Source: Magnetococcales bacterium (GTDB lineage: Bacteria; Pseudomonadota; Magnetococcia; Magnetococcales; JADFYX01). Taken from it: a stretch of DNA of 64,000 nucleotides. The notes under the pieces are model-generated. The model made no database searches. It was not told where the DNA came from and saw only the letters and a program-made list of their open reading frames with translations. Position numbers and translations under genes: made by a program. Each line of letters opens with the position of its first letter. Position 1 is the stretch's first letter. Positions 1 through 9,164 of the stretch are shown here, piece by piece. The stretch spans positions 62,001-126,000 of the forward strand of contig PEAM01000010.1 in NCBI GenBank assembly GCA_002753565.1, read 5' to 3'.

Positions 1-43
1 CAGTGAAGAGCCGGTGGCTGGGATGGGTTTTATCATGATTTAG
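1..43 (+). CDS. 3' end of an upstream gene, probably cas3 (partial)
   Basis: From base 2 an open frame encodes 13 residues ending GMGFIMI and stops with TAG at 41-43. The stop overlaps the ribosome binding site of cas5c, as expected for the last codons of a co-transcribed upstream gene. In type I-C loci the gene directly upstream of cas5c is normally cas3, the HD-nuclease/helicase that degrades the target. The identity is inferred only from this order, because 13 residues carry no recognisable motif. Confidence 0.45.
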   Translation, partial: SEEPVAGMGFIMI

Positions 44-53
44 GAGGAGATCT

Positions 54-761
54 GTGGATAACCGCATTAGCTTTAAGGTGAGTGGTCGATATGCCCTGTT
101 TACCGATCCTGTTTCACGGGTGGGAGGCGAGAAGTGCAGCTACCATCTGCCTACCTACGAGGCGATCAAGGGTGTTGTCAAGTCGATCTACTGGAAACCC
201 ACTCTGGTCTGGATCGTCGACCGGGTAAGGGTCATGAAACCACTGCGTACCCAGACCAAAGGGACCAAACCGATCAAATTTCAGTCTTCCGGCAACGATC
301 TGGCCATCTACACTTTTTTGCGTGATGTTGAATATCAGGTCGAAGCCCATTTTGAGTGGAACCCATATCGGCCTGAACTCAAAGCGGACCGCAACCCCAG
401 AAAGCATCTCGCTATTGCCCAACGCATGGTTGAACGGGGCGGACGGCAGGATGTTTTTCTGGGCAGCCGTGACTGTCAGGGTTATGTGGAATCCTGTGAA
501 TTTGGTGCGGGAGAAGGGGCCTATGATGGGATTGAGGAGCTGGGATTTGGCCTGATGTTTCATGGCTTTGACTACCCCGATGAAACCGGAGAAGAGGCGC
601 TGGGCAGTCGCTTTTGGCACGCCACTCTGCGTCACGGTCTGATCGACTTTCCACGACCTGAGGCCTGCACGATTCGCCGCCACATTCGACCGATGCGGGC
701 TAAGCGATTTGAACTGAACGCAAGTCAACTACCTGTGACCCACGAGGAGAGTCGGTTATGA
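54..761 (+). CDS. cas5c: Cas5c (Cas5d), type I-C crRNA endoribonuclease
   Basis: In type I-C, Cas5 replaces Cas6: it cuts pre-crRNA at the base of the repeat hairpin and stays on the 5' handle in Cascade. The 235-residue protein has the usual family length. The residues known to be catalytic in Cas5d (Tyr, Lys, His) can be matched to Tyr46 and the Lys117-His118 pair in RNPRKHLA. The glycine-rich stretch around GGRQDVFLGSRDC is also typical. The GTG start is supported by AGGAGGAGA six bases upstream. The stop overlaps the next start (ATGA), so translation is coupled to cas8c. Confidence 0.95.
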   Translation: MDNRISFKVSGRYALFTDPVSRVGGEKCSYHLPTYEAIKGVVKSIYWKPTLVWIVDRVRVMKPLRTQTKGTKPIKFQSSGNDLAIYTFLRDVEYQVEAHFEWNPYRPELKADRNPRKHLAIAQRMVERGGRQDVFLGSRDCQGYVESCEFGAGEGAYDGIEELGFGLMFHGFDYPDETGEEALGSRFWHATLRHGLIDFPRPEACTIRRHIRPMRAKRFELNASQLPVTHEESRL

Positions 762-2740
762 GCTGGATGGCCAAACTGTATGCAACCTATGAAGCGGGAA
801 TACGCCTTGATCTGGATGGTGAAGAGCCATTAATGCCCATAAGCCACTCCATTCAAAATGCCCACATCCACCTGACCCTTAACGAAGCGGGGCAGCTGCT
901 GCGTGCCGAAGCGGTCGAAAAAATGGCCGTCATGCTCCCAGCCACAGAAAAATCGGCTGGTCGTACCAGTAATGAAGCGCCCCACGCATTGGCTGATAAA
1001 CTGCAATATGTAGCAGCTGACTACCTTGCCTTTGGTGGAATCAAAAAAAGCTATTATGCCGGCTATCAACAACAGCTTCGCGGGTGGTGCCAATCCCCTT
1101 TCAACCATCCCAAGGCAGAAGCGGTACTGCGCTATATCGAGAAGGGGCGGGTTATCGCTGATTTGGTTGACCAGGGGGTGGTTTTTCTCGATGAAGCGGG
1201 GAAACTGCTCCAGCGATGGTCTGGAGACGATGTCCCACGGCTCTTTAAATCTCTTCCAAAACAGAGCGGTATCACAGACCAGGGAGCAGCCTTGGTCTGT
1301 TGGAGTGTCGAAATAAGCAGGGAGCCTGAATCCCGCAGTTGGGTTGATCCTGACCTGCAGCAGAGCTGGGTGGACTATCAAGCCAGTCAGGGCAGTGATA
1401 CAGGTCTCTGTTATATAACCGGTCAACAGTTGCCCCTAGCCACCAGCCATCCCGCCAAGCTACGCCATTCGGGAGATGGTGCCAAGCTTGTCTCCGCAAA
1501 CGATGAAAGAGGATTTACCTTTCGTGGTCGCTTTCACCATTCAAACGAGTCAGCCGCCATCGGTTTCGATGTCACCCAAAAAGCCCATAACGCCTTGCGC
1601 TGGCTCATCAACCGCCAAGGGTTTCGCAACGGCGAGCAAGTCTGGGTTTGCTGGGCAGTCTCTGGCAAGCCGATCCCAGAGGTGACAGTCAGTAGTTTGG
1701 AGTGGCATCTCGACGACTTGGCCATTCAAGAGCCCACCCCCCCAGAGTCCAACCACAACCAGCCGCCTGCCATCCTCCACAGTCGTAATCTGGGGGCGCA
1801 GTTTGCTCATCAACTTAACCGTTATCTGGCCGGTTATCGGGCCAAGCTCCATCCCACCGACGAGATCGTCATCTTGGGGCTGGATTCAGCTACACCTGGA
1901 CGCATGAGCATCATCTATTACAGAGAGTTTTTGGCTGAGGCATTTCTCAACCGACTACACGACTGGCACCTGCATTTTTCGTGGTATCAACGTCACACCC
2001 AGACGCAGCCGGTCGAAGGCCGCAAAAAAGCAAAAAAGGTCACAATCTGGCCCGTCGCCTCGCCCGCTCCCAAAAAAATAGCAGAGACAATCTACGGTAG
2101 CCGACTGGATGAGGCGCTCAAGAAAAAGGTGATCGAGCGGATCATGCCCTGCCTGATCGATCGTCGCCCCCTACCCGAAGATTTAATGCGCCTGGCGGTT
2201 AAACGGGTCAGCAATCGGGTTGGCTATCCCAGTGATGAGTGGTGGCGCTGGGAGCAGGACCTGGGCATTACCTGCGCCCTTTATCGCGGTTATTGCTACC
2301 GTCACCCCAATCCAAACCAACAGAAGGAGTTTTCCATGGCACTAGAAGAGGACAACCATACACGCGACTACCTCTATGGTCGATTGCTTGCTCTGGCCGA
2401 ACGCATTGAAGAGGTTGCGCTGAGTATCAGTGGTGAAAATCGCACCACCATGGCAGCAAGACTCATGCAGCGCTTTGCCAACCACCCCTATACCACCTGG
2501 CGCACCCTGGAACTATCCCTCCAGCCCTATATGCAGAGGTTGCAGGTCTCACGCACCGGCTTTTTGGTCATCCAAAAACGGGAACTCGATCAGATTTTAT
2601 CCTGTTTCACCTCTGCCGATTTCAGCAGTGACAAGCCCTTGCGTGGGGAGTTTTTGCTTGGCTACCACTGCCAGCGCCTGGCCCTGCGCAATAAAAAGGC
2701 TGACCCAGATCAAACCACCGAATCGACCCAAATCTCTTAA
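758..2740 (+). CDS. cas8c: Cas8c (Csd1), large subunit of type I-C Cascade
   Basis: Cas8c recognises the PAM and helps recruit Cas3; an internal translation product often supplies the small subunit in type I-C. At 660 residues it is at the upper end of family length. Features typical of Csd1 are the N-terminal block with SHSIQNAHI, the CYITGQQLP segment followed by HPAKLRHSGDGAKLVSAN, and the LDSATPGRMSIIYYRE segment. It lies between cas5c (4-base overlap) and cas7c (11-base gap). No frameshift or early stop is seen, so interference is probably still possible. A C-terminal internal start for a Cas11-like product may exist but was not assigned. Confidence 0.93.
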   Translation: MSWMAKLYATYEAGIRLDLDGEEPLMPISHSIQNAHIHLTLNEAGQLLRAEAVEKMAVMLPATEKSAGRTSNEAPHALADKLQYVAADYLAFGGIKKSYYAGYQQQLRGWCQSPFNHPKAEAVLRYIEKGRVIADLVDQGVVFLDEAGKLLQRWSGDDVPRLFKSLPKQSGITDQGAALVCWSVEISREPESRSWVDPDLQQSWVDYQASQGSDTGLCYITGQQLPLATSHPAKLRHSGDGAKLVSANDERGFTFRGRFHHSNESAAIGFDVTQKAHNALRWLINRQGFRNGEQVWVCWAVSGKPIPEVTVSSLEWHLDDLAIQEPTPPESNHNQPPAILHSRNLGAQFAHQLNRYLAGYRAKLHPTDEIVILGLDSATPGRMSIIYYREFLAEAFLNRLHDWHLHFSWYQRHTQTQPVEGRKKAKKVTIWPVASPAPKKIAETIYGSRLDEALKKKVIERIMPCLIDRRPLPEDLMRLAVKRVSNRVGYPSDEWWRWEQDLGITCALYRGYCYRHPNPNQQKEFSMALEEDNHTRDYLYGRLLALAERIEEVALSISGENRTTMAARLMQRFANHPYTTWRTLELSLQPYMQRLQVSRTGFLVIQKRELDQILSCFTSADFSSDKPLRGEFLLGYHCQRLALRNKKADPDQTTESTQIS

Positions 2741-2751
2741 GGAGTAGAACC

Positions 2752-3591
2752 ATGAGCCTGAGCCATAAAATCGACTTTGCCCTTATTTTCAGCGTCAAAA
2801 GTGCCAACCCCAACGGAGACCCCCTCAACGGCAACCGTCCACGAACCGACTATGAGGGCTACGGTGAAGTCACCGATGTTTGCCTCAAGCGCAAATTGCG
2901 CGATCGGTTACAGGCGGATGGTCAGAGCATTTTTGTTCAGTCGGACGAGAAGAAGAGCGATGGTATGACCAGCCTGAAAAATCGGGCCATATCAGCTGAT
3001 TTTGGCTTGGGTAAAGAGGTGTTCAACGCTAAAAAAACGCCACCCGATGAAGCTGCCCGCTTAGCTTGTGCCAAATGGCTTGATGTGCGTAGCTTTGGTC
3101 AACTCTTTGCCTTTAAAAGCGATAACAAAGATGGGGTTTCGATACCCATTCGTGGCCCGGTAACCATTCAGTCAGCCTTTAGTATTGAACCGGTGAGCAT
3201 CACCAGCACCCAAATCACCAAAAGTGTCAGCGGTGAAGGCGATGGAACCAAGCGCAGTGCCGACACCATGGGTATGAAACATCGGGTTGATCACGCTGTC
3301 TATGTCACTTTTGGCAGTATGAACCCCCAACTGTCGGAGCGCACAGGATTTGAAGATGCGGATGCCAATCTGCTTAAAACAGCCCTGCCACGACTCTTTG
3401 AAGGTGACGCCTCATCTGCCCGCCCAGAAGGGAGTATGGCCGTCGAAAAGGTGATTTGGTGGCAACACAACTGTCCCAGTGGTCAATACTCTTCGGCAAA
3501 GGTTCATCGCAGTCTGTCGGTCAATCCGGATGGTAGCTATACCCTTGTCCCTCTCGAAGGGTTGAAAGCCGAAGAGATAGAGGGTTTTTAG
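2752..3591 (+). CDS. cas7c: Cas7c (Csd2), type I-C Cascade backbone
   Basis: Cas7 polymerises along the crRNA spacer and forms the backbone of Cascade. The 279-residue protein carries the family N-terminal signature NPNGDPLNGNRPR and the central IPIRGPVTIQSAFSIEPV block, followed by a TQITKS thumb region and MGMKHRVDHAVY. Length is normal. An AAGGAG site lies just before the ATG, and it follows cas8c by 11 bases in the same operon. The sequence appears intact. Confidence 0.95.
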   Translation: MSLSHKIDFALIFSVKSANPNGDPLNGNRPRTDYEGYGEVTDVCLKRKLRDRLQADGQSIFVQSDEKKSDGMTSLKNRAISADFGLGKEVFNAKKTPPDEAARLACAKWLDVRSFGQLFAFKSDNKDGVSIPIRGPVTIQSAFSIEPVSITSTQITKSVSGEGDGTKRSADTMGMKHRVDHAVYVTFGSMNPQLSERTGFEDADANLLKTALPRLFEGDASSARPEGSMAVEKVIWWQHNCPSGQYSSAKVHRSLSVNPDGSYTLVPLEGLKAEEIEGF

Positions 3592-3618: not shown

Positions 3619-3747
3619 ATGTTTGAAGAAAACGACCTGCTTCCACTCTCTGGCTTGCAACATCTGGCTTTTTGTCCCCGGCAGTGGGCACTGATCCATA
3701 TCGAACAGATAGTCCGCATCAGTCCGCAGCCATCGCCCGAGCAGTGA
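3619..3747 (+). pseudogene. cas4: cas4 5' remnant, cut off by the cas4-cas1 deletion
   Basis: The frame from ATG 3619 encodes 42 residues. About the first 30 are the recognisable Cas4 N-terminus, [18 protein letters not shown], including the first iron-sulfur cysteine in FCPRQW. Reading then passes into cas1 DNA out of frame and stops at 3745-3747. The RecB-like nuclease motifs and the C-terminal cysteine cluster are missing, so PAM-trimming activity in adaptation must be lost. The normal type I-C order is cas7-cas4-cas1-cas2, and this piece sits exactly where cas4 should begin. Confidence 0.88.
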
Positions 3748-4451
3748 TTGCAGCCAAAATCGCTAACAGCCGCAATGTGATACAGCGGGCATTACGGGAC
3801 TATCCAACAAGTGAAGGCAACAACGAACTGGAGCAGGTACAACGGCATTTAAAGTCGAGACTTAAATCACTGGAACAACTCAATCAAGAGACGGTCGATA
3901 CGCTGCGGGGTATCGAGGGTGAGTCAGCCAAAAGCTATTTTAGCGTTTTTGATCATCTGATAAGAGGTGATCAAAAAGCGTTCTTTTTTCATGGCCGCAA
4001 CAAACGCCCACCAAGAGACAATACCAATGCTCTTTTATCGTTTGTTTACACTCTTTTGGTCCACGATGTTACGGCTGCATTGGAGGGGGTTGGGCTCGAT
4101 CCTTCCGTCGGCTATTTGCACCGCGATCGGCCCGGAAGATTGGGACTATCTCTCGATTTAATGGAGGAGTTGCGGGCCTATTTGGCGGATCGGTTGGTGT
4201 TGTCGCTTATCAATAGACAGCAGGTAAAGCAGCGTGGCTTTTCCCAGTCAGAATCGGGAGCAGTAACAATGGATGAGGCTACCCGAAAAACTGTTTTAGT
4301 CGCATGGCAAGAGCGTAAACACGATATCATTACCCACCCTTTTTTAAGAGAAAAGATGGAAGTTGGCCTGCTACCACACATCCAATCAATGTTACTGGCA
4401 CGAACGATCCGAGGAGACCTTGATGGCTACCCACCCTTTATTTGGCGTTAG
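3699..4451 (+). pseudogene. cas1: cas1, N-terminal part deleted
   Basis: Cas1 is the integrase that inserts new spacers. The open frame covers only the C-terminal part, about 250 residues against roughly 340 in the family. It begins at the region matching [16 protein letters not shown]. The catalytic residues are present: the Glu in GIEGESAKS, and the His and Asp of GYLHRDRPGRLGLSLDLME. The N-terminal beta domain, needed for dimer formation, is absent. No good ribosome site starts the frame; only a TTG at 3672 inside cas4 could. The junction lies in TATCGAACAG (3699-3708), readable as both cas4 and cas1, which suggests a deletion between short repeats. About 0.7 kb is missing. Confidence 0.9.
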
Positions 4452-4463
4452 GAAAGTACAAAA

Positions 4464-4754
4464 ATGTTGGTGTTAGTAACATACGATGTCAAAACCGATT
4501 CAGCTGATGGTGCAAAGCGGCTGAGAAGAGTAGCTAAATTGTGTGAAGATGTTGGTCAGAGAGTCCAATATTCTGTCTTTGAATGTCTGCTTGACCCAGC
4601 ACAGTGGGCACTTTTTCGTCAGAAATTGCTTGATGAAATTGATAAGGAACAAGATAGTTTGCGCTTCTATTTTTTAGGCGCAAACTGGAAAAAAAGAATT
4701 GAACATGTAGGAGCAAAGCCCGCCTACGATCCAGAAGGGGTTTTAATGATCTGA
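4464..4754 (+). CDS. cas2: Cas2, adaptation complex subunit
   Basis: Cas2 holds two Cas1 dimers together during spacer integration. The 96-residue protein starts MLVLVTYDV, the usual first beta strand with its aspartate. It continues with RVQYSVFECL and ends in the type I-C tail GAKPAYDPEGVLMI. It is full length and 12 bases after the cas1 remnant. With Cas1 truncated and Cas4 missing it has no obvious active partner here, so its intact state suggests either a recent deletion or complementation by cas1/cas4 elsewhere in the genome. Confidence 0.95.
   Translation: MLVLVTYDVKTDSADGAKRLRRVAKLCEDVGQRVQYSVFECLLDPAQWALFRQKLLDEIDKEQDSLRFYFLGANWKKRIEHVGAKPAYDPEGVLMI

Positions 4755-4947: not shown

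Positions 4948-9164
<4,217 letters not shown>

Follow-up and report, generated by a model that had tools for sequence, protein, structure and literature searches.

Damaged adaptation genes have been described in type I-C CRISPR systems of Pseudomonas aeruginosa, where lineages 3 and 4 have a common cas1 frameshift and completely dissimilar spacers, and where the Cas3-5-8-7 set of PaLML1, which is listed among the cas1-frameshift strains, gave functional immunity (PMC7913775). In the type I-C system of Bacillus halodurans, Cas4, Cas1 and Cas2 form a single complex (PMC6519985). Loci that do without cas1 and cas2 are found in other subtypes, namely III-A of Pyrobaculum islandicum and I-A of Pyrococcus abyssi (PMC3396285), and a natural Cas4-Cas1 fusion occurs in type I-G (PDB 7mi4; NF049935).

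The locus described here lies at the beginning of a 64,000-nt stretch of the genome of a Magnetococcales bacterium (contig PEAM01000010.1), referred to as the window. Like the P. aeruginosa systems it is of type I-C with a broken cas1, but theirs is a frameshift carried on a mobile island, whereas here a deletion has also removed cas4. It has the gene families and gene order of the intact operons of B. halodurans (PMC6519985) and of a relative from the same order (G014), except that these retain a full cas4 and the N-terminal domain of cas1, and about 850 bp of this DNA is gone from the present locus. The P. islandicum and P. abyssi loci likewise produce crRNA without adaptation genes, a capacity predicted from sequence alone in the present case, although in those subtypes the adaptation genes are wholly absent rather than truncated. 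The likeness to the I-G fusion is that cas4 and cas1 are both involved, but that fusion is one in-frame functional polypeptide, while the two remnants here are out of frame and the genes mostly deleted. In all likelihood the deletion ended the normal addition of spacers while leaving interference with 63 stored spacers possible, and the event was probably recent. It is an ordinary loss-of-function deletion and a new example of a loss seen repeatedly, yielding a clean natural knock-out of adaptation that spares the genes for interference and a large, uniform array.

The operon and the remnants of cas4 and cas1

Together with the DNA immediately upstream, the window carries the type I-C gene order cas3-cas5c-cas8c-cas7c-cas4/cas1 remnants-cas2-array (Table 1). 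The effector genes cas3, cas5c, cas8c/csd1 and cas7/csd2 form a single operon and score above curated cut-offs, the cas5c, cas8c and cas7c models being subtype-specific for type I-C (NCBIfam); for Cas3, this holds for both the helicase core (TIGR01587) and the HD domain (TIGR01596). No cas6 was found within the operon. A prior reading of the sequence alone (the sequence-only reading) had taken Cas5c, Cas8c, Cas7c and Cas2 to be complete, and the curated models agree. The genome assembly consists of 92 contigs, with 99.12% completeness and an estimated contamination of 3.46%.

Table 1. Features of the type I-C locus, in window coordinates
Feature	Position	Strand	Details
cas3, 3' end	1..43	+	805 aa; remainder upstream at L031:3626-6043
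cas5c, complete	54..761	+	235 aa; TIGR01876, 248.6 bits
cas8c, complete	758..2740	+	660 aa; TIGR01863, 373.8 bits, positions 1-586 of 588
cas7c, complete	2752..3591	+	279 aa; TIGR02589, 312 bits
Damaged cas4/cas1 stretch	3619-4451	+	between cas7c and cas2
cas4 stub	3619..3708	+	first 30 codons; ATG at 3619
Most likely deletion junction	3706..3708	+	3-bp overlap CAG, placed by comparison with homologues
cas1 remnant	3708..4451	+	about the last 247 codons; frame differs from that of cas4
cas2, complete	4464..4754	+	96 aa; above curated cut-off
CRISPR array	4948..9164	+	64 repeats of 32 nt, 63 unique spacers

Over its 30 residues the cas4 stub is ordinary I-C Cas4 sequence. Beyond 3708 its frame runs on for 12 out-of-frame residues to a TGA at 3745-3747, giving 42 codons in total. 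With a full-length I-C Cas4 of a relative as query, the genome yielded a single match, the stub (32 residues, 78% identity, E 4.8e-11), and the Cas4 Pfam profile PF01930 had no match anywhere in the genome. The cas1 frame is open from upstream of the junction through 4451 and its product matches TIGR03640 from position 96 to 340 of 340, the first 95 positions being unmatched, at a score of 361.6 bits that falls under the curated cut-off of 385; it also matches PF01867 (positions 91-283), and its alignment to the solved Cas1 chain 8d3l covers residues 98-343 of that chain (E 1.1e-76). These results bear out the sequence-only reading in its claims that about 30 codons of cas4 and 250 of cas1 are left between cas7c and cas2, and that the two are out of frame with each other. 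A Pfam search of the genome for Cas1 returned the remnant as its only match, so that profile and Cas4 query searches of a 99%-complete genome did not find the second cas1 or cas4 that the earlier reading had proposed looking for.

What has been lost from Cas1 is indicated by the fold predicted for the intact homologue from L032 (mean pLDDT 78.2), in which a beta domain occupies residues 6-80 and helices begin from 86. As the remnant starts at about homologue residue 98-99, the N-terminal beta domain is gone. This domain mediates dimerisation in other Cas1 proteins. The catalytic Glu, His and Asp, which are invariant in an alignment of 26 sequences, are all kept, with codons at 3915, 4119 and 4155, respectively; the His, which is residue 235 of the homologue, is the counterpart of H234 in B. 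halodurans Cas1 (PMC6519985).

The closest sequences to the cas1 remnant (up to 65%) are Cas1 proteins from gammaproteobacterial, planctomycete and deltaproteobacterial assemblies, and its identity to I-C Cas1 from its own order is only about 50-56%. These nearest relatives suggest that the CRISPR locus may have been acquired by horizontal transfer. Within the remnant, at 3946-3977, there is also a 13-pair inverted repeat (TTTTTGATCATCTGATAAGAGGTGATCAAAAA) that scored as terminator-like; such repeats are no more frequent in this DNA than in shuffled versions of it.

Size, junction and age of the deletion

The sequence-only reading had recommended a comparison with intact type I-C loci. In 61 intact homologues the distance from the HIEQ codons of cas4 to a conserved Asp codon of cas1 has a median of 845 bp (quartiles 833 and 866), and from these the DNA missing here is estimated at about 833-866 bp. 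The comparison supports a single deletion, one that took out the greater part of cas4 together with about the first third of cas1. It had been further proposed that the deletion fused the two genes; the deletion stands but the fusion does not, as the two reading frames are not continuous and no fused protein can form. A functional Cas4-Cas1 fusion is also rejected by the end of the cas4 frame after 42 codons.

The same reading placed the deletion between short direct repeats represented by TATCGAACAG at 3699-3708. This sequence is present and can be read in both the cas4 and cas1 frames, but it comprises the HIEQ codons belonging to cas4, and these codons (CAT ATC GAA CAG), when read in the cas1 frame, yield Y-R-T by themselves, with no contribution from cas1. 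Two features of intact Cas1 proteins favour an overlap of about 3 bp instead. The spacing from QYR to KxxN is 18 residues in all 82 scorable homologues, and counted from the YR here it is 17; just before the conserved Asp, 81 of 85 homologues have Ala, and here there is Thr (ACA). A join at CAG between cas4 GAA-CAG and cas1 GCA-GAT, converting GCA to ACA, would account for the Thr. A 3-bp CAG overlap is the simplest reading and the best fit to the homologues, although chance alone would give an overlap of that length at about 5% of random junctions.

The main explanation could also hold with a different mechanism, replication slippage between direct repeats of 7-10 bp, for which the double reading of TATCGAACAG is the starting point. 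A 7-bp overlap, CGAACAG, is possible in that QYR is most often followed by R (43 of 85 homologues), but it would require an ancestral Thr at the position that is so nearly always Ala, while a 10-bp repeat would require an ancestor one codon shorter than every scorable homologue. The 10-bp microhomology was rejected as the preferred reading on both the spacing and the Ala, and slippage between longer repeats is considered unlikely overall. It is very unlikely that full cas4 and cas1 genes exist and that the assembly skipped about 850 bp or selected a deleted minority variant. The fragmentation of the genome and its estimated contamination could be taken to favour such an error, but the approximately 3 bp shared at the junction are far too few to lead an assembler astray, the junction is interior to a 126,778-bp contig, and the missing segments of cas4 and cas1 are absent from the rest of the assembly.

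A single deletion with a short overlap thus remains the preferred reading, and several observations bear on its age. No stop codon occurs over 738 nt of the cas1 remnant and, as 4.6% of single changes would create one, neutral divergence since the deletion should be below about 9% (95%). Three of 80 strongly conserved positions have changed (R to K, A to S and A to S), all conservatively, a number equalled or exceeded by 11% of 88 intact Cas1 homologues; conservation is thus near normal, and strong decay of the remnant is not seen. In cas2, none of the 32 strongly conserved positions has changed. Sixty of the 64 repeats are identical, the variants being numbers 31, 39, 52 and the terminal repeat 64, which ends in T rather than C. 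The sequence-only reading had pointed to uniform repeats and an intact cas2 as signs of a recent event, and both are confirmed. If array growth stopped at the deletion, all repeats must be at least as old as the deletion, and four variants in 64 x 32 nt (2,048 bases) would then correspond to about 0.2% divergence with an upper limit of 0.45%, assuming that the repeats are neutral and have not been homogenised. The uniformity also fits an array that is still growing or has been homogenised. A recent event is nevertheless likely, because the cas1 remnant is free of stops with little decay and the repeats are so uniform.

Probable consequences for adaptation and interference

Without the N-terminal beta domain of Cas1, no Cas4-Cas1-Cas2 integrase would be expected to assemble, and new spacers would no longer enter the array by the normal route. 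Cleavage of pre-crRNA by Cas5c at the repeat hairpin should remain possible, as should the destruction, by Cas5c-Cas8c-Cas7c together with Cas3, of targets that match the 63 stored spacers; over time the locus would be expected to decay. Loss of canonical adaptation is well supported by inference, because the beta domain is gone, no other Cas1 or Cas4 was found in the genome, and Cas4, Cas1 and Cas2 form one complex in B. halodurans. Counted against it are the clean frame and catalytic residues of the remnant. Retained interference is plausible, given that the effector genes are intact, that the repeat folds into a hairpin (7-bp stem, -15.1 kcal/mol, z -2.05) and that PaLML1 provides an example of immunity from the same gene set. 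Interference without acquisition, which the earlier reading had put forward as a possibility, is a good inference. It is plausible, too, that the array is frozen; a broken cas1 is no guarantee of a static array, since the P. aeruginosa lineages with one cas1 frameshift differ in their spacers.

Two alternatives would keep the array active. A Cas1 and a Cas4 might sustain adaptation in trans from a plasmid or from genomic sequence missing from the assembly. The genome is still a draft, and supply of Cas1-Cas2 in trans has been proposed for other subtypes, but with an assembly that holds neither a second Cas1 nor a Cas4 this is highly improbable; provision by another system within the assembled genome is rejected, the remnant being its only Cas1 match and no Cas4 having been found. 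The least credible alternative, of very low probability, is that the remnant still functions as a minimal adaptation protein, alone or with Cas2, re-initiated at a GTG that overlaps the stop codon of the stub (GTGA, 3744-3747), for although the clean frame, the retained catalytic residues, the near-normal conservation, the GTG itself and the differing spacers of P. aeruginosa may be cited in its favour, Cas4 is missing and Cas1 has lost its entire beta domain (residues 1-80), no clear ribosome-binding site is visible ahead of the GTG, and a recent deletion accounts for a clean frame without function. The spacer diversity of those lineages hints at a wider version of this, just as improbable here, in which a truncated Cas1 of this kind, or some other enzyme, still adds spacers in place of normal Cas1.

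None of the 63 spacers is duplicated. Comparison with 50,697 phage records and with the rest of the genome turned up no convincing target; in the genome, the best matches outside the array were of about 27-29 nt at 89-90% (E 0.17). Spacers 15, 32 and 58 (5907-5940, 7028-7061 and 8759-8792) have a similar core, CCTCxCGxCCACAAAG, which suggests repeated capture from one target family; a scan of viral contigs with this core gave 59 candidate contigs. Spacer 14 (5842-5874) is mostly an internal tandem repeat, TTTTTTATGTCCGAC followed by TTTTTTATGTCCGA.

Adaptation gene loss in relatives

Among 398 genomes sampled from the phylum, the order of the window included, 29 have cas8c, at 31 loci, and the positions of the cas8c matches were compared with those of cas1. 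A full-length cas1 lies nearby on the same contig at 22 of the 31 loci, five are not judgeable because of contig ends or a cas1 on a different contig, and four are missing a full cas1: the present locus and those of G172, G028 and G282. Comparable losses thus occur at three of the 25 other judgeable I-C loci, and on this count the loss of adaptation genes is recurrent. The stretch from cas7c to cas2 had no match in the four other genomes of the same genus; of these only G004 has cas8c, which is partial and cut by a contig end, and none of the four has a comparable version of the locus.

The three other losses take different forms. The I-C remnant in G282 (L211 7600-13719) has a cas3 split over two frames and a cas8c match that stops at position 536 of the 588 in the profile, with an integrase gene beside it, and the genome has no Cas1 anywhere. 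The locus in G172 (contig C136; L210 8917-11160), from the same phylum, is a parallel case: an independent deletion, again between cas7c and cas2, has removed cas4 and the N-terminal ~196 residues of Cas1. Its breakpoints differ from those described above: no cas4 start is left, all that follows cas7c of Cas1 is its final ~144 residues (positions 197-340), the cas2 frame is disrupted, and there are only about 7 nearly uniform repeats. In G028 (contig C18; L201 5552-9420), cas5c-cas8c-cas7c have no adjoining cas4, cas1 or cas2 and no cas3 immediately upstream, and a different Cas1 is encoded on another contig. Seven degenerate repeats directly follow its cas genes, an old, decaying array that exemplifies an old loss of adaptation, so that the present locus, G172 and G028 together represent early and late stages of adaptation gene loss.
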